From contig NZ_JACLGO010000020.1 in the NCBI RefSeq assembly GCF_014219065.1, positions 1 through 64,000 of the forward strand: 64,000 nt of DNA, written 5' to 3'. This DNA is from Halopseudomonas xiamenensis (GTDB lineage Bacteria; Pseudomonadota; Gammaproteobacteria; Pseudomonadales; Pseudomonadaceae). Position 1 is the first letter of the stretch, and every line of letters starts with the position of its first letter. Position numbers and translations under genes: made by a program. The notes under the pieces are model-generated. The model worked only from the letters and a program-made list of their open reading frames with translations. It searched no databases and was not told the origin of the DNA. Below, one piece after another: positions 13,245 through 62,645 of this stretch.

Positions 13245-14330
13245 ATGAACCTGGCCCCCTGCATTCCACCTCATCAGAACAATCTGTTCAGCGCCTGGCA
13301 GCAACTGCTGCAGCAACAGCCCCGGCTGCGTGCCCGCGAGGCGGCCAGGCAACTGGCAGTGAGTGAAGCCGAGCTGATCGCCAGCCGCCTGGGGCTCAAT
13401 ACCCTGCGCCTGCGCCCTGACTGGCGCGAACTGCTGCCGGCGCTGGAGAGCCTGGGCCGGATCATGGCGCTGACCCGCAACGAATCCTGTGTGCATGAAC
13501 GCAAGGGCATCTACCGCGAAGTGACCCTGGCCGGTAATGGCAGGATGGGCCTGGTGCTGTCGGCGGATATCGATCTGCGGCTGTTCCTGGGCGGCTGGCA
13601 CAGCCTGTTCGCCGTCGAGCAGGAAACCGCCCACGGCATGCAGCGCAGCCTGCAGGTGTTCGACCAGCATGGCGTGGCGGTACACAAGGTATTTCTCACC
13701 GCTGACAGTGACCTGGACGCCTGGGGCCGTCTGCTGGCGCGCTTTGCCGAGCCGACCCAGCTGCCACCGGAGGATCTGCTGCCACTGCCGGCCCGCGCCG
13801 CCGAGCGAGCCGATAGCGCAGTGGATGTCGAGGGGCTACGCCAGGGCTGGGCGCAGCTCAAGGACGTGCATCACTTCCACGCGCTGCTCGGCAGGTACCA
13901 GGTTGGCCGGCAGCAGGCGTTGCGCCTGGCCGGTCGGCAGTGGGCCGAGCCGCTGGACCCACAGGCCTTGCCGCAGATGATGGGCGAGGCGGCGGCGCAG
14001 CAACTGCCGGTGATGCTGTTCGTCGGCAACCGGCACTGCATCCAGATTCATGGTGGCCCGATCCAGACGCTGCGCTGGGCCGGTGACTGGTTCAACGTGC
14101 TGGATGCCGACTTCAACCTGCACCTGGACATGCCGGCGGTGGCGCAGCTGTGGCGCGTACGCAAGCCGAGTGTCGATGGCCTGATCACCAGCTGGGAGGC
14201 ATTCGATGTCGATGGCGAGCTGATCCTGCAGATGTTCGGTCTGCGCAAGCCCGGCCAGCCGGAGCTGGCCGCCTGGCGTGCATTGGCCGAAGGCACCCCG
14301 GCACAGGAGTCCGCCGCCGATGCGTCGTGA
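13245..14330 (+). CDS. phuS: PhuS/HmuS-type cytoplasmic haem-trafficking protein
   Basis: A 361-residue protein made of two similar halves as in PhuS/ShuS/HemS: ESLGRIMALTRNESCVHERKG begins the first core and HHFHALLGRYQVGRQQALRLA the second. The conserved His cluster DVHHFH (about residue 208) matches the haem-ligand histidine of PhuS. It takes haem delivered by the ABC importer and passes it to haem oxygenase. First gene of the operon, with a Fur-like box 35 bp upstream. The stop overlaps the phuT start by 11 nt. Confidence 0.88.
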   Translation: MNLAPCIPPHQNNLFSAWQQLLQQQPRLRAREAARQLAVSEAELIASRLGLNTLRLRPDWRELLPALESLGRIMALTRNESCVHERKGIYREVTLAGNGRMGLVLSADIDLRLFLGGWHSLFAVEQETAHGMQRSLQVFDQHGVAVHKVFLTADSDLDAWGRLLARFAEPTQLPPEDLLPLPARAAERADSAVDVEGLRQGWAQLKDVHHFHALLGRYQVGRQQALRLAGRQWAEPLDPQALPQMMGEAAAQQLPVMLFVGNRHCIQIHGGPIQTLRWAGDWFNVLDADFNLHLDMPAVAQLWRVRKPSVDGLITSWEAFDVDGELILQMFGLRKPGQPELAAWRALAEGTPAQESAADAS

Positions 14331-15201
14331 ATATACCCTTGCCGGCCTGTGTGCCGGCCTGCTGCTGAGTCTGGATGCCCTGGCCGAGCCGTTGCCGCAG
14401 CGCTGGGTCAGCGCCGGTGGTGCGGCCACCGAGTGGGTGGTCGAGCTGGGTGGCGAGCCGCGGCTGGTGGGGGTGGATACCACCAGCCAGCACCCGGCAT
14501 CGCTGCAGGCGCTGCCCAGCGTCGGCTATCAACGCCAGCTGTCCGCCGAGGGCGTGCTGACGCTGACTCCGGACCTGCTGCTGGGCACCGAGGAAATGGG
14601 CCCGCCGCCGGTGCTGGACCAACTGCGCAGCGCCGGGGTACGCATCGAACAGCTGTCCGCCGCCAGCGACTTGGCGGCGCTGGAAGACAACCTGCAGCGC
14701 CTGGGCGCGTTGCTCGGCGAGCCGCAGCGGGCGCAGGCCGCAGTCGATGACTTCCGCCAGCGACTGGATGAGTTGCAACGGCAGATCGCCGCGCTGCCCG
14801 CCGAGGCGCCGGGCGTGCTGCTGCTGATCGGCCAGGGCGGCAGCAATCCATTGGTGGCTGGGCGCGGCACCGTGGCCGAATGGCTGCTGCAGCGCGCCGG
14901 CGCGCGCAACCTGGCGCAGCATGAGGGTTACAAGACGCTGTCCAGCGAAGCCCTGGCGGCGCTGGATGCCGACTGGCTGGTGGTGACCGATCGCCAGCTG
15001 CGCGGCGCCGAGATGCAGCAGGCGCTGCTGGCGCAGAATCCGGCGCTGGCCAGCAGTCGGGTGGTGCGCGAAGGCCATCTGCTGAGCCTCGATCCGACCC
15101 TGCTGACCGGTGGTCTGGGGCCGCGCCTGCCGGCGACCCTGGAGCAGCTGGCGCGGACCTTCTACCCGGACCTGCAACCCCTCAGCGCCGACGCGCGCTG
15201 A
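14320..15201 (+). CDS. phuT: periplasmic haem-binding protein PhuT/HmuT
   Basis: A 293-residue substrate-binding protein of the helical-backbone (BtuF/HmuT) class, with a signal peptide ending near LSLDALA. It begins RWVSAGGAATEWVVELGGEPRLVGVDTTSQHP, typical of HmuT, and contains GYQRQLSAEGVLTLTPDLLLGTEEMGPP. It shuttles haem from the outer-membrane receptor to PhuU/PhuV. Start MRREYT at 14320 overlaps phuS. The stop overlaps the phuU start by 1 nt. Confidence 0.87.
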   Translation: MRREYTLAGLCAGLLLSLDALAEPLPQRWVSAGGAATEWVVELGGEPRLVGVDTTSQHPASLQALPSVGYQRQLSAEGVLTLTPDLLLGTEEMGPPPVLDQLRSAGVRIEQLSAASDLAALEDNLQRLGALLGEPQRAQAAVDDFRQRLDELQRQIAALPAEAPGVLLLIGQGGSNPLVAGRGTVAEWLLQRAGARNLAQHEGYKTLSSEALAALDADWLVVTDRQLRGAEMQQALLAQNPALASSRVVREGHLLSLDPTLLTGGLGPRLPATLEQLARTFYPDLQPLSADAR

Positions 15202-16232
15202 TGATGCCATCGCAGGTAGCGCGCTGGCTGTTCGCGGCGCTGGCGGGATTGTTGCTGCTGTCCATCTGGCTGTCGCTGGCACTGGGTCCGGTCAACCTGC
15301 CGCTGGCCGACACGCTGCATGCGCTGTTCGGCCTCAGCGGGTTGGGCGCACCGGCATCGCCCCAGGCCGAGCTGATCGTCGGCCAGATCCGCCTACCGCG
15401 CACCCTGCTGGGGTTGATGGTCGGCGCGGTGCTGGCGCTCACCGGGGTGGCCATGCAGGGGCTGTTTCGCAACCCGCTGGCCGACCCCGGGCTGATCGGC
15501 GTGGCCAGTGGTGCGGCGCTGGGCGCGGCGCTGGTGATCGTCGGTATGTCGCGCTGGATGACCCTGCCGGCGGCCATTGAGCCCTATGTGCTGTCGGCGG
15601 CGGCCTTCGCTGGCGGGCTGCTGGTTACCGGGCTGGTCTACCGGCTCGGCCGGCGCGACGGCCAGACCCAGGTGGCGACCATGCTGCTGGCCGGGGTGGC
15701 GCTGACCGCGCTGGCTGGCGCGGTGATCGGTCTGATGACCTACCTGGCCGATGACGCCACCCTGCGTGCGCTGACCTTCTGGAACCTCGGCAGCCTGAAT
15801 GGCGCCAGCTATGCGCGGCTGTGGCCGTTGCTGCTGGTGGCGCTGGGCGTGGCACTGTGGTTGCCGCGCCGCGCAGATGTGCTCAATGCCCTGCTGCTGG
15901 GCGAGTCCGAGGCGCGGCACCTGGGCTTCGATATCGAACAGGTCAAGCGCGAGCTGATCCTGTGTACCGCCCTGGGCGTTGGTGCGGCGGTGGCCGCGGC
16001 CGGGCTGATCGGCTTCGTCGGGTTGGTGGTACCGCACCTGATGCGCCTGCTGGTCGGCCCCGATCATCGCCTGTTGCTGCCGGCCTCGGCCCTGGCCGGG
16101 GGCGCCCTGCTGCTGTTCGCCGACCTGGCGGCCCGGCTGCTGGTGGCACCGGCGGAAATGCCGATCGGCATCGTCACCGCGTTGATCGGCGCGCCGTTCT
16201 TTCTCTACCTGCTGATACGGAGCCGCCACTGA
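15201..16232 (+). CDS. phuU: haem ABC transporter permease PhuU/HmuU (FecCD family)
   Basis: A 343-residue, roughly ten-TM FecCD-type permease. Recognisable segments are [13 protein letters not shown], the family hallmark [46 protein letters not shown] and the cytoplasmic coupling region [23 protein letters not shown]. It forms the inner-membrane channel with PhuV. ATGA-type overlaps occur on both sides. Confidence 0.92.
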
Positions 16233-16999
16233 TGATGCAGGCCGATGGACTGGGCGTGAGCCGCGGTGGGCGCAGCGTGCTGCGCGGAGTGAGTCTGGGG
16301 CTGCGGCCGGGCCAGGTACTGGGTGTGCTCGGCCCCAATGGCGCCGGCAAGAGCAGCCTGCTGGGCCTGCTCAGCGGCGAGCTGCGCGCCGATGCCGGCA
16401 GCGTGCTGCTGGATGGCCAGCTACTGCAGGATTGGCCGGGCCGCCAGCGTGCGCAGCGGCTGGCGGTGCTGCCGCAGACCTCCAGCCTCGGCTTCGGCTT
16501 CCAGGTCAAGCAGGTGGTGCGCATGGGCCGCATGCCCCACGACACCGGCCTGGCGCTGGACCAGCAGATCGTCGAGCAGGTGCTGGAGGCGGTGGATGCC
16601 AGCCACCTGGCCGGGCGCAACTACCTGCAGCTGTCCGGTGGCGAACGCCAGCGCGTGCACCTGGCGCGGGTGCTGGCGCAACTCTGGCCGGGTGCTGATG
16701 GCCAGGTGCTGCTGCTTGACGAACCGACCTCGATGCTCGACCCGCTGCACCAGCTCAGCGTGCTGGATGCCGTGCGCCGCTTCGCCGACCACGGCGCCAG
16801 CGTCCTGGTCATCCTGCACGACCTGAATCTGGCCGCGCGCTACTGCGACCAGCTGTTGCTGCTCGGCGACGGCGGCGTACAGGCCAGCGGCAGCCCCGAA
16901 CAGGTCCTGCAACCGGCCGCACTGCAGCGAGTGTTCGGCATCGACGTGCTGGTGCAACGCCACCCGGAACGGGGTCATCCGCTGATCATTGCACGCTGA
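16232..16999 (+). CDS. phuV: haem ABC transporter ATPase PhuV/HmuV
   Basis: A 255-residue ABC ATPase: Walker [11 protein letters not shown]-loop LPQTSSLGF, signature LSGGERQRV, Walker [13 protein letters not shown] and switch His in [10 protein letters not shown]. Two ATGs are adjacent (16232 and 16235); the first overlaps the phuU stop. Last gene of the operon. A phuR-type receptor gene and phuW are not in the window. Confidence 0.92.
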
Positions 17000-18270: not shown

Positions 18271-19146
18271 TTACTGGTGTGCTGACCGCCTCAGCATGAA
18301 CCGATAATCATGGCGTTGCAGCGGCCCATCCAGTCCCACCTGATAGGTATCCACTACTACTTGACCATCATCCAGCACGGTCACCACCCGGAACATCGGG
18401 ACATGCCGGCTTTCGTCGGGAATCTTGGTGCGCTCCAGTGCGGGCATGTGTAAATGGTGCACGCCGTCGATCTGCTTCGAGTGCTCGGTCCGGTCCATAT
18501 CCATGTGCAGGTCGCCGGAGATCATCGCCACCAGATTGGGATGATTGCTGATCTCGGCAAAGCGGGGGTGGTGGATGCCCTTGTCCGGGTTCTCAGGGAA
18601 GGTACCGGCAGGGGCACCATGCACTACCAGCAGTACCGGCTTGGGATGCAGCTGTCTGATCTGCTGCCTGACCCAGGCGATGCCCTCATCATGAAAGTCT
18701 CGGCCTTCATCCGGTGAAGCCATGACCAATGCGAGTTGCTCGAACTCCAGCACATAGCGGGGGCCGGGGATCTCGGCCTTGCCTTCGTTCCAGCGCTGGG
18801 CATATTCCATGTAGCGCTCCACGCTGGAGCCATGTTCCTCGTTGCCCATGATCGGGTAGAAGGGCAGGGTCAGGCGTTGCAGTACCGGGGTGACGGCCTG
18901 GTATTGCAGCTCGGTGCCCTTGTGGGCGATATCGCCGACGCCGATCACGAAGTCCAGATCGAGGATGTCGGTCAGGTGATTGACGTGACCGACCGCAGCG
19001 GCCAGGCCGGGGAACTCCGCTTTTGGCTTGGGCTCGGCATCACCGAGCACGGCAAAGCGCAGCACCGGCTCGGCGGCGCTGGCCAGCGGCGGGGCAATGA
19101 TGCTGCCGAGCAGCAGGTAGGTGGACAGCAGGGTTCGCAGTTTCAT
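18271..19146 (-). CDS. secreted calcineurin-type metallophosphoesterase
   Basis: A 291-residue protein with a signal peptide (MKLRTLLSTYLLLGS...ASAAEP). The metallophosphoesterase motifs are AVLGDAEP (normally GD-x-H/Q), VIGVGDIAHKG (GDxxD-like), IMGNEEHG (GNHE-like with Glu-His order changed), VVHGAPAG and MISGDLHMD. Several canonical metal ligands are thus altered, but the overall order of blocks is kept. It probably hydrolyses phosphate esters in the periplasm. It lies 124 bp after phoX in the same direction and may belong to the same operon. The start at 19146 gives the clear signal peptide. Confidence 0.7.
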   Translation of the reverse strand: MKLRTLLSTYLLLGSIIAPPLASAAEPVLRFAVLGDAEPKPKAEFPGLAAAVGHVNHLTDILDLDFVIGVGDIAHKGTELQYQAVTPVLQRLTLPFYPIMGNEEHGSSVERYMEYAQRWNEGKAEIPGPRYVLEFEQLALVMASPDEGRDFHDEGIAWVRQQIRQLHPKPVLLVVHGAPAGTFPENPDKGIHHPRFAEISNHPNLVAMISGDLHMDMDRTEHSKQIDGVHHLHMPALERTKIPDESRHVPMFRVVTVLDDGQVVVDTYQVGLDGPLQRHDYRFMLRRSAHQ

Positions 19147-19270
19147 GATTGATCCTTGTAGTTGAGGTTGATTGTCTGGAAGGTCGAGTTCCACCTCGAC
19201 CATCGGAGGTGTCTGATACGCCGTTGGCCGGGATGGAACCTGGCAGGGTCGCCATCGGCCCTCCATGGTG

Positions 19271-21262
19271 TCAGCTGCCTATCACCCTGCCATCCTCATG
19301 CGTGATCACCACGGTGGTGGAGCGTGGGCGGCTTTGGCCGTCGCTGGCGGGGTAGCTGATTTTCGGGTGCTGGATGTTGACCCATAGGGTGCGGTAGTCC
19401 GGGGTCCAGGTGATGCCGGTGATTTCCGCGCCCCGGGGGCCGACCAGAAAGCGCCGTACCTCGCGGCTCTGCGGATCGGCACACAGCAGTTGGTTGCAGC
19501 CAGTGTTCACCGTATGCATGGCCTTTTCGTCCGAGTCGGTCTGTATCCACAGGCGACCATCACCATCAAACGCCAGCCCGTCCGGGGAGGAGAAGATGTC
19601 GCCCTGGATATTGCCGATCAGGTTGTCCGGCAGCGGCTGGCCCTCGGCGTCGGTGGCGCCGGACTGGTCGCCGGCGAGCAGGAACAGGTCCCACTCGAAG
19701 GCGGTGGCGGTCGGGTCGGCGTGGTCTTCACGCCAGCGCAGGATCTGCCCGTGCTGGTTGTTTGGACGCGGGTTGGCAGCATCCACGGCAAAGCGCTCGC
19801 CGCGCTCGTGGTTGTTGGTCAGGGTGACATACACCTCACGGCTGACCGGGTGTACTGCGACCCATTCCGGGCGGTCCATGGGCGTGGCACCAAGGATATC
19901 GGCGGCGCCCCTGGCGTTCAGCAATACTGCCTGCTGGTCGGCAAAGCCGTTGGCGGCGGTCAGACCCTGCTCGCCCCAGATCAGCGGCAGCCACTGACCG
20001 CGACCGCCTTCGTCAAAGCGCGCGGCGTACAGGGTGCCGCTGTCCAGCAGATCGCGGCTGGCGGCGGGGTTGGCCGGGTCATGGCGGCCAGCGGGGACGA
20101 ACTTCCAGACGTATTCACCCCGGGCATCGTCGCCGGAGTAGACCGCCATGCGTCCGTCATCGCCCAGCGATACCACGGAACACTCCCGGCTCAGGCGGCC
20201 CATGGCGGTGCGCTTGATCGGTGTGCTGTCCGGGTCGAAGGGGTCGATTTCCACCACCCAGCCGAAGCGGTGCGGTTCGTTGACGTGGCCCTGGTGCGGC
20301 TGTTGCTCATCCGGGGTGGCGTCAAACCGAGCGTCGACCGACTCCCAGGCGTAGTAGGCGCTGCGTTGGCCCTGGCCGATGCCGTAGCGTTGGTGGGTCG
20401 GTCGGCTGGCGTGATCGGCGGCGTTGCGGTTGACGAAGTAGTTGTGAAAGTTCTCTTCGCAGGTCAGGTAGGTGCCCCAGGGGGTGACGCCCATGGAGCA
20501 GTTGTTCAGGGTGCCCAATACCGCAGTACCCGTCGGGTCGCTGGCGGTGCGCATGCGCTCATCACCACGCAACGGGCCGCTGATGCTCATGGGCGTCAGC
20601 GCGCTGATGCGTCTGTGGTAGCGTGAGCCCGATACCCGCTGCCACTGGCCGTCGGCATGGCGGCGGATCTCCAGCACGCTGACCCCGTGGGCAGCCTGTT
20701 CCTTGCGTACCTGATCCAGCAGGCGCTGGCGACGGCCATCGGCCAGGTCGGTGTAGCTGAAGCCGTCCGTATGCAGGGTCGGGTTGATGTATTCGTGGTT
20801 GATTACCAGCAGGCCGTGTTCGTTGGGCGCATCTTCAAAGGGGAAGAAGTGCATACCATCGTGGTTGTCGCCGGCCTGCAGCAGTTGTGCCTGCCAGTCC
20901 TGGGAGGCGTCATCCAGCCAGACGGGCGCGTTGTCCAGTACCGCATCGCCCCAGCTGAAGAAGGCCTCGGCGCGGTAGCCGGGGGCGACCAGTACACGGT
21001 CGAAGTCGGCGCCGGTCTGCGCGGCCACGCCGGTAAAACCCAGCAGCGGGCCGGTGGCCGCTGTCGCGCCGGCGGGGGCGCGCTGGCACGCCACCAGGCT
21101 GCCACCGAACAGGCCGAAGGCGGCCAGGGCCAGCCCGCCCTTGAGCACCTGACGGCGGCTGCGGTTGATGATGCGCTCCAGATCGGTGGCCTGACTGGGG
21201 TTGAGTATGCGGTCGTCCACCGCCTGCAGGTCGTCGTGGTAATACTGGTGTTCCTGTCTCAT
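19271..21262 (-). CDS. phoX: PhoX-family alkaline phosphatase (DUF839), Tat substrate
   Basis: A 663-residue protein. The N-terminal twin-arginine signal has RR at 36-37 (NRSRRQVLKGGLALAAFGLFGG), preceded by a cytoplasmic tail as in other PhoX proteins. The mature part carries PhoX/DUF839 features: GMHFFPFEDAPNEHGLLVINHEYINP, NCSMGVTPWGTYLTCEENF, RHDPANPAASRDLLDSGTLYAARF and DGLAFDGDGRLWIQTD. PhoX enzymes are calcium/iron-dependent phosphomonoesterases of broad specificity. It is 10 nt downstream of tonB in the phytase operon. Confidence 0.85.
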   Translation of the reverse strand: MRQEHQYYHDDLQAVDDRILNPSQATDLERIINRSRRQVLKGGLALAAFGLFGGSLVACQRAPAGATAATGPLLGFTGVAAQTGADFDRVLVAPGYRAEAFFSWGDAVLDNAPVWLDDASQDWQAQLLQAGDNHDGMHFFPFEDAPNEHGLLVINHEYINPTLHTDGFSYTDLADGRRQRLLDQVRKEQAAHGVSVLEIRRHADGQWQRVSGSRYHRRISALTPMSISGPLRGDERMRTASDPTGTAVLGTLNNCSMGVTPWGTYLTCEENFHNYFVNRNAADHASRPTHQRYGIGQGQRSAYYAWESVDARFDATPDEQQPHQGHVNEPHRFGWVVEIDPFDPDSTPIKRTAMGRLSRECSVVSLGDDGRMAVYSGDDARGEYVWKFVPAGRHDPANPAASRDLLDSGTLYAARFDEGGRGQWLPLIWGEQGLTAANGFADQQAVLLNARGAADILGATPMDRPEWVAVHPVSREVYVTLTNNHERGERFAVDAANPRPNNQHGQILRWREDHADPTATAFEWDLFLLAGDQSGATDAEGQPLPDNLIGNIQGDIFSSPDGLAFDGDGRLWIQTDSDEKAMHTVNTGCNQLLCADPQSREVRRFLVGPRGAEITGITWTPDYRTLWVNIQHPKISYPASDGQSRPRSTTVVITHEDGRVIGS

Positions 21263-21272
21263 GGTCTGCTCG

Positions 21273-22073
21273 TCATTCAATGCGGTAGCGGAAGGTGTTG
21301 CGCACGTCGTGAACGGCGACACGCTGGCCGTTGACCGTCCGTGGCTGGTAGCGGAAGGACTTGGCGGCGGCCAGCGATGGGCGTGCGAACAGCGGGTCGT
21401 CACAGGCGCCGTCGACCACCTGCGGGTCGCTGACGCGACCGTCCTGGGTGACCGTGTAGCTCACCGTACAGTCGCCTTCCAGCCCGCGATCCAGTGCCCG
21501 CCGGGGATAGGTCGGGGGTTGCTTGCTGATCGGCTGGTACTGGGCAATGGCGGCGGCTTCGGCAGCGCGCCGTGCCGCCTCGGCGTCGGCCAGCGCCCGG
21601 GCTTCGGCCTCGGCGGCCAGGCTCTGCTGTTCCAGGGCATGCCGCTCGGCCAGTTCGCGTTGCTGCTGCTCCTGGCGGGCCTGCTCCTGCTGCCGCTGTC
21701 TTTCCTGTTCCTGCTGGCGCTGCTGTTCGGCCAGGCGTTGCTGTTCCAGACGCTCGCGTTCGTGCTGCTCTTCCAGTCGCTTGCGGGCGATCTCGGCCTG
21801 ATCCACCTGCGGCTCCACCGGCGCTGGTGGTTCGGCTTCCACCACCGGTTCGGGCGGCGGTTCGGGTGCAGGCGCCAGGGGTTCTGGTACTGGGCTGGGC
21901 AGGCTGACCAGCTGCATGACCATCACCGACGGCGGTGCGCTGGCTGGCGGCTCGGGTGACCAACTGCTGTAGAGCATCCAGAAGGCCCCGCCGTGCAGCA
22001 GCAGGGTGGCTGCGGCGGGCAGCAGCCAGCTTTCGCTGCGGTGGTGCCGGCGTGGTGTGATCAACTCGTTCAT
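21273..22073 (-). CDS. tonB: TonB energy transducer of the phytase operon
   Basis: A 266-residue protein with an N-terminal TM (WLLPAAATLLLHGGAFWML), a Pro-rich spacer (about 45-90), a long Gln/Glu/Arg-rich coiled-coil-like stretch (about 92-170) as in TolA/TonB hybrids, and a C-terminal TonB domain starting QPPTYPRRALDRGLEGDCTVSYTV. The last domain is TonB, not TolA. Unlike tonB3 at 56646 it sits in an operon with exbBD and a receptor, so it is probably dedicated to that receptor. Confidence 0.85.
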   Translation of the reverse strand: MNELITPRRHHRSESWLLPAAATLLLHGGAFWMLYSSWSPEPPASAPPSVMVMQLVSLPSPVPEPLAPAPEPPPEPVVEAEPPAPVEPQVDQAEIARKRLEEQHERERLEQQRLAEQQRQQEQERQRQQEQARQEQQQRELAERHALEQQSLAAEAEARALADAEAARRAAEAAAIAQYQPISKQPPTYPRRALDRGLEGDCTVSYTVTQDGRVSDPQVVDGACDDPLFARPSLAAAKSFRYQPRTVNGQRVAVHDVRNTFRYRIE

Positions 22074-22076
22074 GCG

Positions 22077-22517
22077 TCAGGGCGCCTCGGTAATCAGGCT
22101 CAGCCGGGTGATGCCGCCCTGTTGCAGGGCGGCCATGCCTTCGATCACCGCGCCGTAATCGGCATGGCGGTCGGCCCGGATGAATACCTGGGTCTCGGGT
22201 CGGGCGGCGACCAGGGCACCGATGCGCTGGCGCATATCCTCCAGCGAGTCGGCGCTGTCGGTGTACTCCTCGGTGTTCACCGTGTCGCCTTCATTCCAGT
22301 GGTAGTAACCGCCATCATCTATCGACAGGGTGACAATATTGAGCGGGTCGTCATTGGCCAGCGTCTCGCTGGCGACCTTGGGCAGCTCGATCTGCACGCC
22401 CTGGGTGAGCATCGGTGCGGTGACCATGAAGATCACCAGCAGCACCAGCATCACGTCGATATAGGGCACCACGTTCATTTCCGAGTTGAGCGAGGCCTTG
22501 CGGCGATGCGGGCGCAT
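22077..22517 (-). CDS. exbD: ExbD-type proton channel subunit
   Basis: A 146-residue ExbD/TolR protein with one TM. The functional Asp21 is in MNVVPYIDVMLVLLVIFMVTAPM. The periplasmic part ends with VFIRADRHADYGAVIEGMAALQQGGITRLSLITE, the family hallmark. It forms the proton-driven motor with ExbB and TonB. Gaps are 3 nt to both exbB and tonB. Confidence 0.9.
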   Translation of the reverse strand: MRPHRRKASLNSEMNVVPYIDVMLVLLVIFMVTAPMLTQGVQIELPKVASETLANDDPLNIVTLSIDDGGYYHWNEGDTVNTEEYTDSADSLEDMRQRIGALVAARPETQVFIRADRHADYGAVIEGMAALQQGGITRLSLITEAP

Positions 22518-22520
22518 GAC

Positions 22521-23204
22521 TCAGTGCCCCGCCCGGTTGTGCAGGCGCCGGTGGAGGATGGTCGAGAACTCCTCGGCGAAGCTGTAATAGCGGTTGATCA
22601 GCCCTGCACTGCGCGCGGCGAAGCGGTTGTAGGCGATCACTGCAGGAATCGCCGCGAACAGGCCGATGGCGGTGGCGATCAGCGCCTCGGCAATCCCCGG
22701 CGCGACCGCTGCCAGGGTCGCCTGCTCAGTCTGCGACAGGCCGATAAAGGAGTTCATGATGCCCCACACGGTACCGAACAGGCCGATATAGGGGCTCACC
22801 GAGCCGACCGTGGCGAGGAACGGCAGATTTTTTTCCAGGCGTTCCTCTTCCTCGGCAATGGCCACGCGCATGGCCATCTGTACGCCTTCCATTACCGCGT
22901 CCGGTTCACTGTTCTGCTGCTGCAGGTGAGCGAACTCCTGATAGCCGGCGTGGAAGATGCCTTCGATGCCGGAGCCGTCGGCCTGTTGCTGTTGGTAGAG
23001 CTGCGCGAGGTCGGTGTCCTTCGAGCGGAAGCGCTGCTGGAAGTCGGTCAGCGAACGCCTGGCCGCACCCATCAGGCTGCTGCGCTGGATGATCAGGAAC
23101 CAGGAGATCAGCGACGCGAGTACCAGGGTCAACATCACCAGTTGCACCAGCAGGCTGGCTTCGGCAATCAGCGACCAGGGGGACAGGTTGTGAGTGGTTT
23201 CCAT
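22521..23204 (-). CDS. exbB: ExbB/TolQ-type motor subunit
   Basis: A 227-residue protein with three TMs in the MotA/TolQ/ExbB pattern: an N-terminal TM (SLLVQLVMLTLVLASLISWFLI), then a large cytoplasmic loop and two TMs around LATVGSVSPYIGLFGTVWGIMNSFIGL and IAEALIATAIGLFAAIPAVIAYNRF. The sequence around NLPFLATVGSVSPYIGLFGTV is close to TolQ, but the neighbours (exbD, tonB, receptor) indicate an ExbB role. Confidence 0.88.
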   Translation of the reverse strand: METTHNLSPWSLIAEASLLVQLVMLTLVLASLISWFLIIQRSSLMGAARRSLTDFQQRFRSKDTDLAQLYQQQQADGSGIEGIFHAGYQEFAHLQQQNSEPDAVMEGVQMAMRVAIAEEEERLEKNLPFLATVGSVSPYIGLFGTVWGIMNSFIGLSQTEQATLAAVAPGIAEALIATAIGLFAAIPAVIAYNRFAARSAGLINRYYSFAEEFSTILHRRLHNRAGH

Positions 23205-23216
23205 GGGTTGGCTTCC

Positions 23217-25178
23217 TCAATCCAGTTGCAGGGCATCGGCAATGGCTTGCCAGGGCACGTATTTGTAGTTCTGGTTGCCTTCGGGCATGCGCTTGCGGCC
23301 GTCCTGCACCATCAGCATACCGGCGCTCCAGGGGCCGCCGAGGTTGGCCGAGCTGACTTCCAGCCCGTCGGTTTCCGATACCCCGTCGATGCCCAGCTCG
23401 GCATTCAGGCCGATGCGGAAGCTGCCGCGCAGGGTGAAGGGTGGTTCGGCGTCGGTGACCACATAGCTGTCGTTGCCCTGGCTGGAAATCACCAGGTAGG
23501 GGCGATCCGGGTGCTGGTAGAGAGCCAGGCCTTCGATATCCGCCTCGACCGGACCGCCGACGCTTATCACCCGGGTCATCTCGGTGCTGGCATCCTCGCC
23601 GGCATCCAGTGCCCAGACCGCTTCGCCCTCTTCGCCGATGAACAGCCGCTGGCGCTGGTCATCCACCACGCAGCCCTCGGGCTGGCTGGCGACGGAGAAC
23701 TCGCGTACCAGTTCGCCGTTTATTTCGCCGCTGTGGCCGTCCAGCCGGTACTGCAGGAAGCGGCCATCCTTGTCGTTGGCGATGGCGTAGAGGCGTCCGT
23801 CTGCCGCCCGGGCCATGCACAGTCCGTAGATGTCTGCCAGCGGCGTGGCGATCTGGCCCAGCTCACGCAGCTCGCCCCCGGTCGGGTCGATGGCAAACAG
23901 GTGCAGGCTGTTATGGTCGCGGTTGCTGGCCACGGCCAGGTCAAGCTGCTGCTCGCCGAGCTGGAAGCCGCTGCGTACATCGACGTTGTTCAGGCGACCG
24001 ACACGCAGGTACTGCAACTGTCGGCCCTGCAGGTCGTATACCGCCAGACCGTTGCGCTTGTCTGTGCCCAGCACTCGGGAACGGGCAGGGTCGCTGGGGT
24101 GCAGCCAGATGGCCGGATCGTCGGCGGCGTCACCGACACTGGGTACCGGTTCGGTCTGCACCAGTGGCTGGACTACTGGCAGCGGCTCGCTGTTGCGCAG
24201 CGCCGGATAGGGCCAATCGAGTCGACTCTGGTACAGCTGGCCGTCGTCCCCATCGAGGATCAGCAGCTCGGCATGGCCGTCGCTGAGCCGTGCGGTCAGC
24301 CGCTCCGGCTCGACGCTGCCGTTCAGCTCCACCGGCTCCAGCGCCTGCCAGCCATCCTCGGTCAGCCGGTAGCTGTGCAGTCGGCGTGCCTCGGCATCCA
24401 GCGCCAGCAGGCCGCCGGGTACCACAGCCAGACCGGCGACCAACTCCTGCAGGCCGCCGAAGGGAGCCAGCATGTCCACCGGCTGGCGACCCAGTTCCGC
24501 CTCGGGGTGGGCGCCGTAGGCCCAGATGCCGACGCTTTCCTCGTTGACGTAGAGCAGGTGCTGCAGCTCATCTACCGCACAATGCTCGGCTTCCGGCGGC
24601 AGGCCGAGGCTGCGTATATGGGCTGGCTGATTCAGCAGTTGACTAGCGCTGCCGACCAGCCACTGATCACCCTTGCCTTCCTCACCGATGACAAACAGAT
24701 GCAGGTTGTGGGCGTCATCGCGGTACAGGCACAGGTTCTCGACACGGTATGCGCTGCTCGGCAGTACCAGTTTGTGGTGTGCGGTCAGGCTGCCGGCATC
24801 GGCTTGCAGCAGGGTCGGCTGTTGGCGTGCGGTCTCGGTGGTGGCGATCAGCAGTTGCCCATCCTGGACCCTTGCATCCAGGGTGCTGAAGTTGCCTGAG
24901 TGCTGTGCCAGCTGCTCGCCGTGCTGATCCAGCAGCCACAGGCCGTCGGCGTCGGCGGCCAGCCGCTGGCCATTATCCAGCAGCAGCCAGGATTCGGCGC
25001 GCTGGGCGTGGGCGGGGGGCCAGCTGTGCAGGGTGCCAGCGCTGGCCGGCTGTGGCTCGCTGGCCGGGGTCGGGGAGGCGACAGCAGTGGTTGCGCTGTC
25101 GTCTGCGCTGGAGCAGGCGCTGAGCAGACCGGACAGGGCCAGCGTGGCCAGTGTGGTCAAATGAAAACGGGGTGGCAT
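23217..25178 (-). CDS. two-domain beta-propeller phytase lipoprotein
   Basis: A 653-residue protein with a lipoprotein signal peptide (lipobox LLSAC, Cys22). The C-terminal half (about 315-650) is a classic beta-propeller phytase: DDPAIWLHPSDPARSRVLGTDKRNGLAVYDLQGR, GRLNNVDVRSGF, EGCVVDDQRQRLFIGEEGEAVW and ADIEGLALY, carrying the Ca-binding acidic residues. The N-terminal half (about 40-310) is a second, diverged propeller domain, as in tandem phytases where it raises activity. It releases phosphate from phytate at the cell surface or in the periplasm. It lies between the TonB-dependent receptor (62 bp) and exbB (12 bp). Confidence 0.88.
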   Translation of the reverse strand: MPPRFHLTTLATLALSGLLSACSSADDSATTAVASPTPASEPQPASAGTLHSWPPAHAQRAESWLLLDNGQRLAADADGLWLLDQHGEQLAQHSGNFSTLDARVQDGQLLIATTETARQQPTLLQADAGSLTAHHKLVLPSSAYRVENLCLYRDDAHNLHLFVIGEEGKGDQWLVGSASQLLNQPAHIRSLGLPPEAEHCAVDELQHLLYVNEESVGIWAYGAHPEAELGRQPVDMLAPFGGLQELVAGLAVVPGGLLALDAEARRLHSYRLTEDGWQALEPVELNGSVEPERLTARLSDGHAELLILDGDDGQLYQSRLDWPYPALRNSEPLPVVQPLVQTEPVPSVGDAADDPAIWLHPSDPARSRVLGTDKRNGLAVYDLQGRQLQYLRVGRLNNVDVRSGFQLGEQQLDLAVASNRDHNSLHLFAIDPTGGELRELGQIATPLADIYGLCMARAADGRLYAIANDKDGRFLQYRLDGHSGEINGELVREFSVASQPEGCVVDDQRQRLFIGEEGEAVWALDAGEDASTEMTRVISVGGPVEADIEGLALYQHPDRPYLVISSQGNDSYVVTDAEPPFTLRGSFRIGLNAELGIDGVSETDGLEVSSANLGGPWSAGMLMVQDGRKRMPEGNQNYKYVPWQAIADALQLD

Positions 25179-25240
25179 GGGATAATCCTTGCTGCAGGGA
25201 AGCGGAGGCGCGGCAGGCACTGGCCCGCCGCACCGGTCAC

Positions 25241-27766
25241 TCAGAAGTGGGTCAGGGTCAGGCCGATCTTGTAGCTGGGTCCGTATTCCTCGTACTGGGC
25301 GTTGTAGCGGCGTTTGCCGGTGTAGACGTAATAGGATTCGTCGGTCAGGTTCTGCGCCTCGAAGAACAGTTGCAGGTTGTCGCGCAGGAAGTAGCTGGCG
25401 CTGAAGTCGACGAATAGCTGGTCATCCACCTTGTAGTCGTAACGGGCGTCCAGCACGTCACCCACTTCGTCCAGGTAGTCGGACTTGTAGTTGGCCGACA
25501 GGCGCAGGCTGAGCTGGTCGTTCTCCCAGCCCAGGGTCAGGTTGCCGGTGATGTCGGACTGGCCGGGCAGGCGGATGCTGCGGCTGCGCATGGCGCCCAG
25601 ATCCGGGTCGAACTGTTCGATATCGGCGTCGGATCGGGTGAAGGTGGTGTTGGCGTTGACCAGCAGCCCGTTCCATGGGGCGGGCAGCCAGCCGAACTTC
25701 TGCGAGTAGGCCAGCTCCAGACCGTAGACCTTGGCGCTGTCACCGTTGACTGAGGTGATGGCTTCGCTGAAGCCTGTGTATTCACCTGTGCCGGCGATGT
25801 CGGCGGTATAGATGAAGTTGTCGATATCCTTGTAGAACACGAAGGCAGATACCGCACCGGCACGACCCATGTAGTGCTCGATGCCGAGATCGAAGTTGGT
25901 TGACTCCAGCGGCTTGAGATCGGGGTTGCCGAACTCCGCCTCGTCGTCATCCAGTACGAAGCCGGGGAACAGCTGGCCGAAGGTCGGACGCACTACGCTG
26001 TTGGTCCAGGCGGCGCGGACTTGGGTCTTGTCGTTGAGCTGATAGATGGCGTGCAGGCCCGGCAGCCAGTGGTCATATTTCTTGCTGGTGTTGTTGGCGA
26101 CGAACTCGCCCTGGTCCAGTCCGGTGCCTCGGGCCTTCATGCGTGTGCCTTCGTAACGCAGGCCGGCGATGATGCGCAGGTCGTCGATATCCAGGGTATT
26201 CATCACATAGGCGGCATTGATGTCCTCCTCGATGGTGAAGTCGTTGATGCGCGACTCTTCCTCATCGTAGAAGTCGGCCCGATCCAGGCCGCTGACCAGG
26301 TCTTTCACTGCGCGGTCGGAAATTCGCGGCCCGAAGCGGCCCAGGCCGTAGTCGGCGGTGCTGCGGCTGAAGCGCGATAGATTCAGTTGAGCGTCGCTGA
26401 AACCCAGTTCGTCGAAGTCTTCGTAGACCCAGACATCCAGGTCGTTGTTCTTTTCCCGGCGGCTGAGCTTGCCGCCAAAGGCCAGCTGCGAGGGCAGGCC
26501 GCTCAGCTGAAAGTCACGGGTCAGGTCGAGCTTGATGTTCTTCTCGGTATCGGTGGTGCGCTGCTTTTCCCATTCCACCTCGGTCAGGGTGAAGTTGTTC
26601 GGGTCGTAATAGTCTTGCCCGGCGCGCAGACGCGGCTTGCGTGTGCTGTCGTAGCCGATATTGCTGAAGTCATCATTGCCTTCGAAGGCGGCATTACCGA
26701 TGCCGCCAGGGCTGTCCTCGCCGGCCTTGCTGTAGCCGGCCTGGGCGCTGAGTCCCCAGTCGCCGAGCTGGCGCTTGCCGCCAAACACGAAGCTCTTGAC
26801 CTCCTGGGTCTCCTCGCGGGCCTTGAGCTCGCGACTGACCTCGGCATCGCCCAGCTCACCGGGCAGCTGTGGGTCGGCAAACTCGGTTACCAGACCCTGG
26901 CGTACCTCATCGTCCTTGTAGCGGCTGTACAGGCTGCGGAACCAGACCTCGCTGTGCTCGTCCGGGCGGTAGTCCAGGTTCAGGCCCAGGCCGGTACGCT
27001 CGCGGGTGATGTCGTAGCGGCGCTGCTCGACTTCTTCCAGCCGGTTGCCGTCATCGAAGTCCCAGGCACCGCCGGTTTCTACGTTGTCCGAGCCGAACTT
27101 CCGCTCCTGCCAGCTCAGCGCCGCAGCGATACCGAAGTTGTCCACACCATCGCCGATACTGAAACGGTTACTGAAGGCGCCGGACAGTTTGGGGCTGTTG
27201 TTGCCAGTGTTCTCATCATGGCTGCCCTCGGCGCTGAGACTGTAGAACAGGCCGTCATGATCGAAGGCCGACAGGCTTTCCACCTCGATGGTGCCACCGA
27301 GGGAATTGGCGTCCATGTCCGGGGTCAGGGTCTTGACTACCGACAGCGACTGCACCAGTTCGCTGGGCAGCACGTCCATGGCCACCGCGCGGCGGTCGCT
27401 CTCCGGGGCTGGTACCAGGGTACCGTTGATGGTCACGCTGTTCAGATCCGAGCCCAGCCCACGTACCCGCACGAAGCGGCCTTCACCTTGGTCGCGCTCG
27501 ACCGACAGGCCGGGAATGCGCTGCAGCGCCTCGGCGGCGTTATCGTCCGGGAGCTGACCGATGGCGTCGGCATGCACCACGCTCTTGATGGTGCTGGCGC
27601 GGCGCTGGTCGTCCAGTGCCTGTTCCAGCTGGGCAGCCTGGCCGATCACATCGACGACCTCCGGCTGCTGTTGCTGTGCCGCCAGCGGCGCGCTTATAGC
27701 GATGGCCAGCGCCAGAGCGCTGAGGCGGAATCCGCTGTGACGGATGGTGATGTGTGCTGCGAACAT
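25241..27766 (-). CDS. TonB-dependent receptor of the phytase operon
   Basis: An 841-residue outer-membrane receptor with a signal peptide ending near PLAAQ. The plug domain begins about residue 60 (IKSVVHADAIGQLPDDNAAEALQRIPGLSVERDQGEGRFVRVRGLGSDLNSVTINGTLVPAPES), a pattern of the Xanthomonas/Caulobacter-type receptor subfamily. The barrel ends in F (YKIGLTLTHF). The start has a GGAGG site 8-9 nt upstream. First gene of the phytase-exbBD-tonB-phoX operon, behind a PHO-box-like repeat. Its ligand is unknown; phytate or a metal-phytate complex is the natural guess from context. Confidence 0.87.
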   Translation of the reverse strand: MFAAHITIRHSGFRLSALALAIAISAPLAAQQQQPEVVDVIGQAAQLEQALDDQRRASTIKSVVHADAIGQLPDDNAAEALQRIPGLSVERDQGEGRFVRVRGLGSDLNSVTINGTLVPAPESDRRAVAMDVLPSELVQSLSVVKTLTPDMDANSLGGTIEVESLSAFDHDGLFYSLSAEGSHDENTGNNSPKLSGAFSNRFSIGDGVDNFGIAAALSWQERKFGSDNVETGGAWDFDDGNRLEEVEQRRYDITRERTGLGLNLDYRPDEHSEVWFRSLYSRYKDDEVRQGLVTEFADPQLPGELGDAEVSRELKAREETQEVKSFVFGGKRQLGDWGLSAQAGYSKAGEDSPGGIGNAAFEGNDDFSNIGYDSTRKPRLRAGQDYYDPNNFTLTEVEWEKQRTTDTEKNIKLDLTRDFQLSGLPSQLAFGGKLSRREKNNDLDVWVYEDFDELGFSDAQLNLSRFSRSTADYGLGRFGPRISDRAVKDLVSGLDRADFYDEEESRINDFTIEEDINAAYVMNTLDIDDLRIIAGLRYEGTRMKARGTGLDQGEFVANNTSKKYDHWLPGLHAIYQLNDKTQVRAAWTNSVVRPTFGQLFPGFVLDDDEAEFGNPDLKPLESTNFDLGIEHYMGRAGAVSAFVFYKDIDNFIYTADIAGTGEYTGFSEAITSVNGDSAKVYGLELAYSQKFGWLPAPWNGLLVNANTTFTRSDADIEQFDPDLGAMRSRSIRLPGQSDITGNLTLGWENDQLSLRLSANYKSDYLDEVGDVLDARYDYKVDDQLFVDFSASYFLRDNLQLFFEAQNLTDESYYVYTGKRRYNAQYEEYGPSYKIGLTLTHF

Positions 27767-27817
27767 GGATTGATCCTCCCCTGGAAAAAGCGGCCTGTGC
27801 GGGCTTTCTGGGGAGGC

Positions 27818-27850
27818 AAGTTAGGTGGGGCAGATGTCAGTTATGTGACC
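27818..27850 (-). promoter_or_regulatory. PHO box and -10 of the phytase operon
   Basis: On the minus strand GGTCAC-ATAAC-TGACAT (27850-27834) has two half-sites each matching the PhoB TGTCAT/C half-site at 5 of 6 positions with the required 11-bp period. Ten bases later comes TAACTT (27823-27818), the right place for the -10 of a PhoB-activated promoter, 52 bp before the receptor ATG. The rest of the 339-bp gap (27767-28105) holds only a direct repeat. Confidence 0.65.
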
Positions 27851-27906
27851 AGGTTGTCATCAATAGTGGTGAAAAGTCAGGATATATGGGGTAACTGGTC
27901 GGTTTT

Positions 27907-28041: not shown

Positions 28042-28105
28042 CGGGCGATGCAACAGCATTGTCATATGCAGCTGCTTAGCTGGCGAGCATGAACGGAGAA
28101 CCATC

Positions 28106-29023
28106 ATGACATCCATGCTCGCCACCCATCGCATAAAGCTGACCGTCCTGCTGATCGCCGCCAATCTCGGGCTGATCCTGCATCTGTTGTCGGGTGAGAT
28201 CAAACCGGTCTCGGCCTGGGACTGGCTGGATGTGGCCGGGGAGGGCGGCTCGGCGGTATTGATACTGGTGTGGATCGGGCTGCTGCTCAAGAGCCGACCG
28301 GCGGGCTATGTGACCGATCTGTTGTTCACGGGGCTGGGCTGTCTGTTTTTCAGCCTGTTCATGGATACCGTAGACGAATTCATCGCCTTGCCTGTCGCGA
28401 TCAACTGGGACGGCTGGCTGGAATCCGGACCTATGCCGGTTGGCTTTATCCTGCTGACCCTGGGTATTTTTCACTGGCACCGCGAACAACTGGCGATCAA
28501 TGAGCAGATGCGCAACCGGGAGCGGCTGTTCCGTGAACACCGTCAGTTCGACAAACTGACCCCGCTGGGGGATGCCAACTATCTGCGGGCGCAATTGCAG
28601 TTGGCGCTGGGTGAGGCGAGCAATGCGCGGCAGCCATTGTCGGTCATCATGCTGGATCTGGATGCCTTCTCCAGGATAAACAGGGAATATGGCCACGCTG
28701 AAGGGGATCGTTTGCTGCAGGTGCTGACTCAATTGCTGCTGCTCAACCTACGCCAGCATGACCTGCTGTGTCGCTTGGCCGGGGATCGATTCGTGGTGAC
28801 CCTACCGCATACCGGAGAGCGTCAGGCGCAACTGCTGGCCGGGGAGATGGGTCAGGCGGTGCGCAGCCTGGCCTACAAGAGCAGCCGCCAGGGCGAGCGT
28901 ATCGAGTTGTCTGCTACGGTGGTGGCGTTGATGGCCCGCGACGAGGATACCAGCAGCCTGCTGCAGCGATTGAATATCGCCATGGCTCGGGCCAAGCAGA
29001 ATCTGACGGTGCAGTATGGATAG
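28106..29023 (+). CDS. membrane protein with degenerate GGDEF domain
   Basis: A 305-residue protein with four predicted TMs (about 10-28, 45-62, 68-88, 110-126) followed by a GGDEF-fold domain (about 150-300). The active-site loop reads AGDRF (225-229) instead of GG(D/E)EF. The usual D-x-LT-x-L-x-N lead-in is altered to DKLTPLGDANYL, although DLDAFSRIN and HAEGDRLL are kept. Catalysis of c-di-GMP is unlikely; it may be a sensor or ligand-binding protein. The stop overlaps the AraC-type gene by 8 nt, so the two are a unit. Start chosen at 28106 behind a GGAGA site. Confidence 0.75.
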   Translation: MTSMLATHRIKLTVLLIAANLGLILHLLSGEIKPVSAWDWLDVAGEGGSAVLILVWIGLLLKSRPAGYVTDLLFTGLGCLFFSLFMDTVDEFIALPVAINWDGWLESGPMPVGFILLTLGIFHWHREQLAINEQMRNRERLFREHRQFDKLTPLGDANYLRAQLQLALGEASNARQPLSVIMLDLDAFSRINREYGHAEGDRLLQVLTQLLLLNLRQHDLLCRLAGDRFVVTLPHTGERQAQLLAGEMGQAVRSLAYKSSRQGERIELSATVVALMARDEDTSSLLQRLNIAMARAKQNLTVQYG

Positions 29024-30065
29024 GGGCGAGCGGGCAGCGGGGTGGCTGGAGTGCGATACGCGCTTTATTCCGGCGCACTATCAGCCCGCCAGCCTGATCG
29101 ACCTGGCTCTTGGCCGGGGCGTCAATGTGCACCGGTTGCTGCAGGGGACCGGGCTATTCCATGAGGACATCCTTGCCGGCAATCGGCTGATCAGCCCGCT
29201 GCAGTTTCTGCGCCTGATCAGCAATGTGCAGCAGCAGATGCAAGCCGATGACACCAGCTTTCTGCTGGGTCAGCAGTGGCTGCCCGGTCACTACGGTGCG
29301 GCCAGCCACGCCCTGCGCCATGCCACCAATCTGCTGGAGGCATTGGAGCGGCTGGTGCGTTTGCAGCCGCTGCTGTGGCCCCTGCTGCGCCTGCGCTTGC
29401 GGGTGGACGAGCGGTATGTCTGGCTGGACTGGGGTGACTGCTTCGGTGCTGGCGGGCAGGACGTGTTTCTGGTCGAGGCCAGTATGGCGGCGCTGACGGG
29501 TGTCAGTCAGTGGTTGTCCGGCCAGCGACTGCCCTGGTTATTCCACCTGGCGCATACGCAGCCGCGCTACATCGAGCAGTACTGGGTGCATCTGGGCGAA
29601 CAGCTGCGTTTCGACAGCCCGCTGAACCAGATGTGCCTGCCACGCAAGTACCTGCACCAGCCCTGGGCGGGGGCCTCGGCGACTGCCGGTCAAGTTGCCG
29701 AACAGGAAGGTCTGGCCATGCTTGCAGCGCTGCCGGCAGTGCAGAGTCTGCTGGACGGCCTGCATGACCATCTGCTGGCGCAGATTCGCCAGCCCCTGCG
29801 GCTGGAGGGAGTGGCGGAGTCCTTCGGCATGAGCCCGGCAACGCTCAAGCGCAAACTGCAGAAGCACGGTACGCATTTTCAGGAACAGCTGGATCAGGCC
29901 CGCTCCAGCGTGGCACTGGAGCTCTACCAGAGCCGCGGCTATACCAGCGACGAGGTGGCCGACTACCTCAACTTCAACGACCGCGCCAACTTCCGCCGTT
30001 CGCTACGGCGCTGGACCGGCCTGCTGCCCAGCGAACTGCGGGAGTGGCTGGGCGGGCAGCGCTGA
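29016..30065 (+). CDS. AraC-family transcriptional regulator
   Basis: A 349-residue regulator of the OruR/ArgR-like AraC subgroup: an N-terminal ligand or effector domain (about 20-220, VNVHRLLQGTGLFHEDILAGNRLISPLQFLRLI) and a C-terminal double helix-turn-helix (about 255-345, LRLEGVAESFGMSPATLKRKLQKHGTHFQEQLDQAR and DEVADYLNFNDRANFRRSLRRWTGLLPSELR). It is translationally coupled to the GGDEF-like membrane protein, which suggests the latter feeds it a signal. The regulon is unknown. Confidence 0.85.
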   Translation: MDRGERAAGWLECDTRFIPAHYQPASLIDLALGRGVNVHRLLQGTGLFHEDILAGNRLISPLQFLRLISNVQQQMQADDTSFLLGQQWLPGHYGAASHALRHATNLLEALERLVRLQPLLWPLLRLRLRVDERYVWLDWGDCFGAGGQDVFLVEASMAALTGVSQWLSGQRLPWLFHLAHTQPRYIEQYWVHLGEQLRFDSPLNQMCLPRKYLHQPWAGASATAGQVAEQEGLAMLAALPAVQSLLDGLHDHLLAQIRQPLRLEGVAESFGMSPATLKRKLQKHGTHFQEQLDQARSSVALELYQSRGYTSDEVADYLNFNDRANFRRSLRRWTGLLPSELREWLGGQR

Positions 30066-59474: not shown

Positions 59475-59511
59475 GGCTCCGCCGGCACAATTTGAATATC
59501 CAGGGGGAAAA

Positions 59512-59877: not shown

Positions 59878-59922
59878 CCGATGGCGCCGCTGGCGGCGGC
59901 GCACAATGACAACAGGGACGGC

Positions 59923-60459: not shown

Positions 60460-60546
60460 TCGGGGAGGGGCGGCCCGGCAGTCAGCCTGGCACGCACCAA
60501 TTCAGGACTTCAAGAAGCATGCGGTAGGCCAGGTAGGGGCCAGAAA

Positions 60547-62586: not shown

Positions 62587-62645
62587 GTAAAGCGCAGGGA
62601 GCGGCTGGATGGCCGCTCCGATAAGAGCACCGCGAGGGTCGCATA

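Follow-up and report, generated by a model that had tools for sequence, protein, structure and literature searches.

The window, i.e. the whole 64,000-nucleotide stretch of Halopseudomonas xiamenensis DNA analysed here (NZ_JACLGO010000020.1, positions 1 to 64,000), is part of contig C12 of a 4.28-Mb genome and encodes seven collinear genes, all on the minus strand between positions 18271 and 27766, which probably form a phosphate-starvation operon for the import and dephosphorylation of phosphate esters. The operon comprises a TonB-dependent receptor, three phosphatase-like proteins and a TonB protein with two motor subunits of predicted Tol type. It is accompanied by a divergent GGDEF-AraC gene pair (28106-30065), a conserved partner absent from an earlier note on this DNA. 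The features of the locus are the following:

25241-27766, minus strand: TonB-dependent receptor (TonB_dep_Rec, 160.9 bits; TIGR01782, TonB-Xanth-Caul type, 620.7 bits, cut-off 310)
23217-25178, minus strand: beta-propeller phytase, predicted lipoprotein (Pfam Phytase, PF02333, 281.8 bits)
22521-23204, minus strand: predicted TolQ-type motor subunit in the ExbB position (MotA_ExbB, 139 bits; TIGR02796)
22077-22517, minus strand: predicted TolR-type motor subunit in the ExbD position (Pfam ExbD, 91.6 bits; TIGR02801)
21273-22073, minus strand: TonB (TonB_C, PF03544, 55.1 bits, cut-off 24.6)
19271-21262, minus strand: PhoX alkaline phosphatase (PF05787, 529.9 bits)
18271-19146, minus strand: predicted secreted calcineurin-like metallophosphoesterase (PF00149, 23.7-24.2 bits, cut-off 21.5)
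27834-27851, minus strand: PHO-box-like site TGGTCAC-ATAA-CTGACAT (score 10.5), 67 bp ahead of the receptor start
28048-28065, plus strand: weaker PHO-box-like site ahead of the GGDEF gene (score 9.5, under the threshold used)
28106-29023, plus strand: GGDEF protein, divergent partner (hydrophobic N-terminal half, AGDRF signature, RxxD intact)
29016-30065, plus strand: AraC-family regulator (Arabinose_bd and HTH_18), overlapping the GGDEF gene

The order of the open reading frames confirms the seven-gene arrangement proposed in the earlier note, and all seven assignments lie above the curated Pfam cut-offs, that of the metallophosphoesterase by a narrow margin. From the receptor gene to the metallophosphoesterase gene, the intergenic gaps are 62, 12, 3, 3, 10 and 124 bp, the starts of the phytase, PhoX and metallophosphoesterase genes having been set from signal sequences. 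The last gap, of 124 bp, is wide enough to allow a second promoter. Promoter- and terminator-like sites were no more frequent than in shuffled sequence.

Within the genus, a phytase was found in 22 of 37 genomes, that of the host included, and 20 of the 21 others were compared, a genome whose contig is shorter than 6 kb (G004) being left out. The order phytase-Q-R-TonB-PhoX (Q and R being the two motor subunits) is kept on one strand in all 20 of these loci, so the arrangement is not due to chance. A receptor of full or near full length and the divergent GGDEF-AraC pair are encoded in 19 of them, the contig of the last one (L050) stopping inside the receptor. The metallophosphoesterase gene is present in 12 of the 20 only. 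A second set consisted of the best 80 of 191 loci from a receptor search (hereafter named loci), with presence thresholds set by us, so that its counts describe the nearest relatives only. In this set the phytase adjoins the receptor in 77 loci, the GGDEF-AraC pair is found in 73, TolQ-TolR-TonB in 58, PhoX in 39 and the metallophosphoesterase in five, which are probably the same records as genus loci; among the loci compared, this last gene was found only in part of Halopseudomonas. Five genus loci (L047, L048, L049, L051 and L061) probably correspond to the named loci L068, L067, L075, L074 and L069 and are counted in both sets. From Pseudomonas to Shewanella and Alteromonas, no strand exception occurs among the genes found in named loci. 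The GGDEF-AraC pair is lacking from seven of these loci, six of which begin at most 1.2 kb from the upstream contig end, the true miss being L142. The closest named relatives of the receptor (90-96% identity) belong to Halopseudomonas bauzanensis, H. pertucinogena and two strains labelled Pseudomonas. At the family level, a phytase domain is encoded in 150 of 398 genomes.

The composition of the locus varies around the receptor. TolQ-TolR-TonB is carried by loci of Pseudomonas, Stutzerimonas, Azotobacter, Azomonas, Salinicola and Acinetobacter; since it is present in 58 of the 80 named loci, this type of locus normally has a motor next to its phytase. The claim that a dedicated TonB motor in a phosphatase operon is unusual among pseudomonads is therefore not upheld, and P. 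aeruginosa also has exbB2D2-tonB4 in a PhoB-dependent operon (PMC4971064). Of the genes considered here, eleven named loci encode only AraC, GGDEF, receptor and phytase (five of Shewanella, one each of Teredinibacter and Oleispira, three of Alteromonadales, and L100, at a contig end), and PhoX occurs without a motor in three Gilvimarinus loci and in an Alcanivorax metagenome-assembled genome (MAG; L120). In a Pseudomonadales MAG (L104, 12496-17250), phytase, TonB and PhoX are encoded and no TolQ or TolR scored above threshold, a possible intermediate stage. In Alloalcanivorax (L121, 14307-19276), the space between phytase and PhoX is occupied by genes for a DUF3450 protein, two proteins of MotA/ExbB type, one that resembles ExbD/TolR yet stays below all cut-offs, a member of the TonB family and a TPR protein, and L122 has the same pattern of matches; another motor thus stands in the same slot, and the receptor therefore seems to gain from a local motor. 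The downstream phosphatase fold also varies (PhoX, PhoA, Metallophos/PhoD) while the receptor is constant: PhoA follows the phytase in Oleispira (L127), a Metallophos/PhoD protein replaces the phytase in Pseudoalteromonas (L140) and Pseudocolwellia (L142), and a Metallophos protein lies between receptor and phytase in L145. In Stutzerimonas stutzeri RM2 (L116), three genes, those for the receptor, the phytase and PhoX, are broken into two frames apiece, through either sequencing error or decay.

The two motor subunits were labelled ExbB and ExbD in the earlier note, a label that the profile scores contradict. Indeed, the Q protein exceeds the TolQ cut-off (TIGR02796, 270.4 bits against 221) and stays below those of ExbB (TIGR02797, 178 against 206.2) and exbB2 (59.5 against 135.35), and the R protein exceeds that of TolR by a small margin (TIGR02801, 134.3 bits against 127.3) and falls below three ExbD models (72.1 against 216, 71.1 against 152.95 and 44.3 against 123.45). 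Compared with solved chains in the PDB, Q scores 192-221 bits with TolQ and 133 bits with ExbB. A tree of the Q protein alone was built from 63 rows, nine having been dropped (the window's own copy, Alcanivorax-type rows and C3 rows). The 29 operon rows form one clade inside TolQ with support of 86/98, in a tree whose bootstrap had not settled, in which long branches meet and which holds three ExbB rows only. This clade adjoins the TolQ of the host and of another Pseudomonadaceae genome (support 85/91), the TolQ rows of other genomes being their best MotA_ExbB matches, picked without a look at the neighbouring genes. The Salinicola and Acinetobacter operon rows fall among the Pseudomonas rows. 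By sequence, the operon motor is thus of Tol type and not of ExbBD type, Q being so placed by cut-off, PDB score and a tree of moderate support, and R by cut-off. The host keeps a separate Tol-Pal locus, in which the tolQ gene lies with ruvB, ybgC, tolR and tolA (these four named by eye); TolB and Pal gave no match among the ten locus proteins scanned with Pfam.

The TonB protein of the operon also exceeds the cut-off of a second model of the TonB C-terminal domain (TIGR01352, 40.5 against 27.1), stays below those of five full-length TonB equivalogs and scores 41.6 bits with the TolA model, under its cut-off of 59.45. Its stalk contains a run of 92 residues free of proline and glycine and rich in alanine, glutamate, glutamine and arginine, and looks like the helical stalk of TolA. 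Over 77 operon TonB proteins (L121 and L122 set aside, probable duplicates included), the median of this run is 87 residues, and it reaches at least 50 in 69 of them; elsewhere in the host it measures 168 residues in TolA, from a 230-residue slice, and 27 and 32 in the two other TonB-like proteins that could be parsed. The eight shorter stalks are those of L058 (4 residues, a parsing failure), L063 (48) and six Acinetobacter loci (20-27). Two cysteines in the TonB tip are common to all 17 aligned operon sequences, L104 and Alloalcanivorax included, and absent from the C3 TonB of the host. The Alloalcanivorax tip shares 41-55% identity with the operon tips compared and 37% with the host C3 tip, the comparison having taken in these operon tips and the C3 tip. 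A second TonB-family gene of the window (56646-57557; TonB_C, 63.8 bits; longest proline- and glycine-free run of 32 residues) lies near chemotaxis-like genes (59422-63524, named by eye).

The receptor is predicted to have a plug and a barrel (PF07715, PF00593 and TIGR01782, all over cut-off), Pfam found no N-terminal signalling domain in it, and its TonB box is presumably near EVVDVIG. The phytase has a lipobox that we take, by eye, to be LSAC-S, and would presumably be sorted to the outer membrane. The earlier note described it as a tandem phytase; its predicted structure, mostly beta (predicted local distance difference test, pLDDT, 88.8) with Bacillus phytases as the best structural matches, is consistent with two propellers in one protein, of which the C-terminal one would be the beta-propeller phytase. 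Indeed, the match to the solved Bacillus phytases (3amr, 1poo), of about 230 bits, is confined to residues 336-650, the N-terminal half having no sequence match among PDB chains; the Halopseudomonas protein thus resembles the Bacillus enzymes in its C-terminal half and adds an N-terminal half and a lipobox. In 25 aligned phytases the catalytic half has 59 invariant positions, 50 of which are identical in 3amr (25 out of 27 where the residue is polar or charged), and the score with the myxosortase-dependent phytase model NF045638 is under its cut-off (243 against 440). PhoX scores 516.8 bits with the solved PhoX 3zwu and presumably carries the twin-arginine motif RRQVLKG; a second PhoX gene is encoded elsewhere in the host genome. 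The modelled metallophosphoesterase (pLDDT 79.1) gave purple acid phosphatase and GpdQ as best Foldseek matches. The canonical motifs of calcineurin-like enzymes are DxH, GNH(D/E) and GHxH, and GDAEP, GNEEH and GDLHMD stand in their place; D36, E38, N102-H105, D212, H214 and D216 are invariant in 13 of 13 sequences, and A37, G211 and M215 nearly so. Since these metal-ligand motifs are altered though conserved, its activity is uncertain.

Control by phosphate was assessed with PHO-box and Fur consensus sequences that we presume to be the right ones. In 77 of 97 loci the receptor start is preceded, at a median of 66 bp, by a PHO-box-like site scoring at least 10, compared with 2.3% of background stretches and with 6 of 97 loci when the opposite strand of that region is read. 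Receptor starts were set by alignment, three loci were left out (L050 for want of a receptor start, L081 and L093 because of contig ends), and five loci are probably counted twice. Several of the misses are Shewanella or Alteromonadales receptors with longer N-termini, and 77 may be an undercount because the Shewanella sites sit further upstream. In five Shewanella loci (L128, L130-L132 and L134), the PHO-like sites precede the length-assigned receptor start by 371-428 bp. On the GGDEF side, sites scoring at least 10 occur in 50 of 98 loci, with a background of 2.7%. The PHO-box-like sites support predicted phosphate control of the operon. Fur sites show no enrichment, and an iron-related reading was set aside on that ground: at least 11 matches out of 19 occur in 19 of 97 loci compared with 32% of the background, and at least 12 in 4 of 97 compared with 11%. 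A haem uptake cluster is encoded on the plus strand at 13245-16999, with a HemS/ChuX-like protein, a periplasmic binding protein, an FecCD permease and an ABC ATPase (the latter named by eye), and ends about 1.3 kb from the operon.

The GGDEF protein has the signature AGDRF where GG(D/E)EF is expected, with arginine at the fourth position in 20 of 20 homologues from Pseudomonas to Alteromonas, and alignment to solved GGDEF proteins backs the register of the signature. The I-site of such domains, which binds cyclic di-GMP (c-di-GMP), is an RxxD motif five residues ahead of the signature; R216 and D219, at this position, are invariant in all 20 aligned homologues. Among the 22 GGDEF matches of the host, the window's own included, 18 were parsed, and the 17 others have GG(D/E)EF in 16 cases and GGDQF in one. 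Since the signature is degenerate and RxxD invariant, the protein is more likely a c-di-GMP binder than an active diguanylate cyclase, as far as motifs can tell. PelD is a c-di-GMP receptor with a degenerate GGDEF domain, and receptors of this kind share the broken signature and the intact RxxD; what sets the present protein apart is its AraC partner gene and its place in a locus for phosphate scavenging. A role in defence was considered and rejected, as PADLOC matched neither the phosphoesterase nor the GGDEF and AraC proteins. In P. syringae, a phytase-domain gene is induced 3.2-fold with bean leaf extract (PMC2803797), which, if that gene belongs to this type of locus, would fit a ligand-sensing input such as AraC.

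Taken together, these features make it probable that the operon is controlled by PhoB, serves to import and strip phosphate esters, with phytate or lower inositol phosphates as the most likely substrates, and has a dedicated TonB motor derived from Tol; for the substrate and the energy coupling, this is what we infer. PhoB would activate the receptor operon, and also the GGDEF-AraC pair in many relatives; the receptor would capture its ligand at the cell surface and be opened by the dedicated TonB, powered by a proton channel of TolQR type; and the lipoprotein phytase, followed by PhoX and the metallophosphoesterase, would free phosphate, to be taken up by the Pst transporter. Of the two regulators, AraC may be the sensor of the ligand and the GGDEF protein that of c-di-GMP. 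The motor would have arisen by duplication of Pseudomonadaceae tolQR and coupling to a TolA-like stalk with a TonB tip, the Tol machinery being thereby turned to Ton work. A wider proposal, held tentatively and with less than even confidence, is that the locus represents a natural Tol-to-Ton conversion, in which duplicated TolQR and a TolA-like stalk were given a TonB tip and a private phosphate-ester receptor; it would have had a single origin in Pseudomonadaceae and been passed to Acinetobacter and Salinicola, the slot would have been taken by another motor in Alloalcanivorax with the receptor and a similar tip kept, and a catalytically degenerate membrane GGDEF protein with a c-di-GMP site would link uptake to c-di-GMP.

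Several observations weigh against this interpretation. Narrow models of both subunits give scores far under their cut-offs (NF008066 for TolQ, 248.2 against 403; NF008248 for TolR, 79.1 against 162), and the TolQ of the host Tol-Pal system is likewise under that of NF008066 (288.4 against 403). The TolQ and ExbB scores of the operon Q protein are 270 and 178, compared with 305 and 153 for the host TolQ, so that it is TolQ-like yet shifted somewhat towards ExbB, and the limits of the Q tree given above apply. The stalk is not TolA-like in the six Acinetobacter loci. The full TolQ-TolR-TonB set is missing from 22 of the 80 named loci, some of them at contig ends, and the Alcanivorax MAG L120 has no motor at all, so that the locus does not always require a motor of its own; moreover, the host genome has six TonB_C and ten MotA_ExbB matches, those of the operon included, and since it thus encodes further proteins of both families, other motors could serve the receptor. 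Pseudoalteromonas arctica L144 (12831-14204) does not fit the association of receptor and phosphatases, as a below-cut-off DUF4397 protein occupies the phytase slot and no phosphatase is evident. As regards control, the promoter repeats of the host pstS score 9.5 and 9.35, under the threshold, the best site of that locus (12.2) lying beyond the pstS end, and the promoter of the second phoX has 11-bp repeats with overlapping sites of 10.5 and 10.05, the best site of that locus (10.65) lying elsewhere. Finally, a proteome study of two strains, P. stutzeri DSM4166 and P. fluorescens SBW25, reports no evidence of PhoBR-regulated phytases in them (PMC5082522); the PHO-like sites of the loci scanned here stand against the view, based on these proteomes, of pseudomonad phytases outside PhoBR.

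Other readings of the locus were considered. The receptor could import another phosphorylated compound, such as nucleotides, phospholipid head groups or sugar phosphates, the phytase-like protein being an interchangeable helper; the partner phosphatases do vary (PhoX, PhoA, PhoD-like) around a retained receptor, and three of the 80 named loci lack a phytase, but no other partner is nearly as common as the phytase (77 of 80), and its catalytic half retains 50 of 59 invariant positions as in the Bacillus enzyme, which makes this reading rather unlikely. That TolQ-TolR-TonB is a spare envelope motor travelling with the locus and untied to the receptor would agree with the further TonB and ExbB genes of the host and with the loci devoid of a local motor. 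It appears improbable, however: the set has the same strand and slot in 58 of the 80 named loci, the gaps around its genes in the window measure only 12, 3 and 3 bp, Alloalcanivorax fills the slot with another type of motor, and TolB and Pal had no match among the ten proteins scanned. The receptor could also be mainly a sensor for AraC-dependent expression, with import secondary, as the divergent AraC and GGDEF genes of 73 of the 80 named loci might suggest; Pfam found no N-terminal signalling domain in it, and signalling through receptors is not usual for AraC proteins, so that such a role is quite improbable. TonB receptors classically carry iron. An iron-supply operon, whose receptor would import ferric-phytate, could further be invoked because phytate chelates iron (PMC3400609) and the haem uptake cluster (13245-16999) is nearby, but Fur sites are not enriched in the 97 loci, where PHO-like sites are found instead, and the operon holds phosphatases and not iron genes, which renders this explanation highly improbable.

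The reading as a phosphate-ester uptake operon with a Tol-type motor was compared with known systems. In Citromicrobium, a TonB-dependent transporter gene beside a phytase gene was proposed to encode a phytate transporter (PMC3400609), the same receptor-phytase pair with the same proposed ligand; the pair alone is reported in the portion of that source concerned, and the Halopseudomonas locus adds the dedicated motor, PhoX, the PHO-like sites and GGDEF-AraC. In P. aeruginosa, the PhoB/VreI operon phdA-pdtB-exbB2D2-tonB4 is PhoB-dependent (PMC4971064) and is likewise a phosphate-starvation operon with its own TonB motor; it differs in its sigma/anti-sigma control, in a motor named ExbBD and in that no phytase is mentioned in the relevant portion of that source. 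The likeness to Tol-Pal lies in TolQ and TolR (by general cut-offs, and by the tree for Q) and in the helical stalk, whereas the TonB C-terminal domain and the receptor-phosphatase setting differ and the host keeps a separate tolQ-tolR-tolA. Domain swaps between TolA and TonB yielded partly working chimeras in which domain III sets the activity (Williams-Jones 2023, as cited in PMC12204202); the operon, which also mixes Tol and Ton parts, would be a natural and widespread case that includes the motor. In E. coli, ExbB and ExbD are partly complemented by TolQ and TolR (PMC8599685). Because of this cross-complementation and of the chimeras, a Tol-type motor driving TonB is mechanically plausible, and we infer by analogy that it does so in the phytase operon. 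No report recognisable as this operon came up in searches of open-access papers, and no Tol-type motor is mentioned in the relevant portions of the precedents cited.

The earlier interpretation of the locus as a phosphate-ester uptake operon is thus sound in outline and partly supported: the tie between receptor and phosphatases is borne out by the adjacent phytase of 77 of the 80 named loci and by the Metallophos/PhoD protein next to the receptor in L140 and L142, and its statement on rarity is wrong. The unexpected feature of the phytase locus is the type of the motor and not its presence, and the motor type and the two regulators are its more interesting parts. TolA is held to derive from a TonB paralog (PMC12905483, PMC12204202); if the present interpretation is true, a Tol motor turned to nutrient import would be a change in the opposite direction and would offer a system in which to determine which part of the motor sets its task. 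Furthermore, the locus makes phytate uptake testable across a broad range of soil and marine bacteria.

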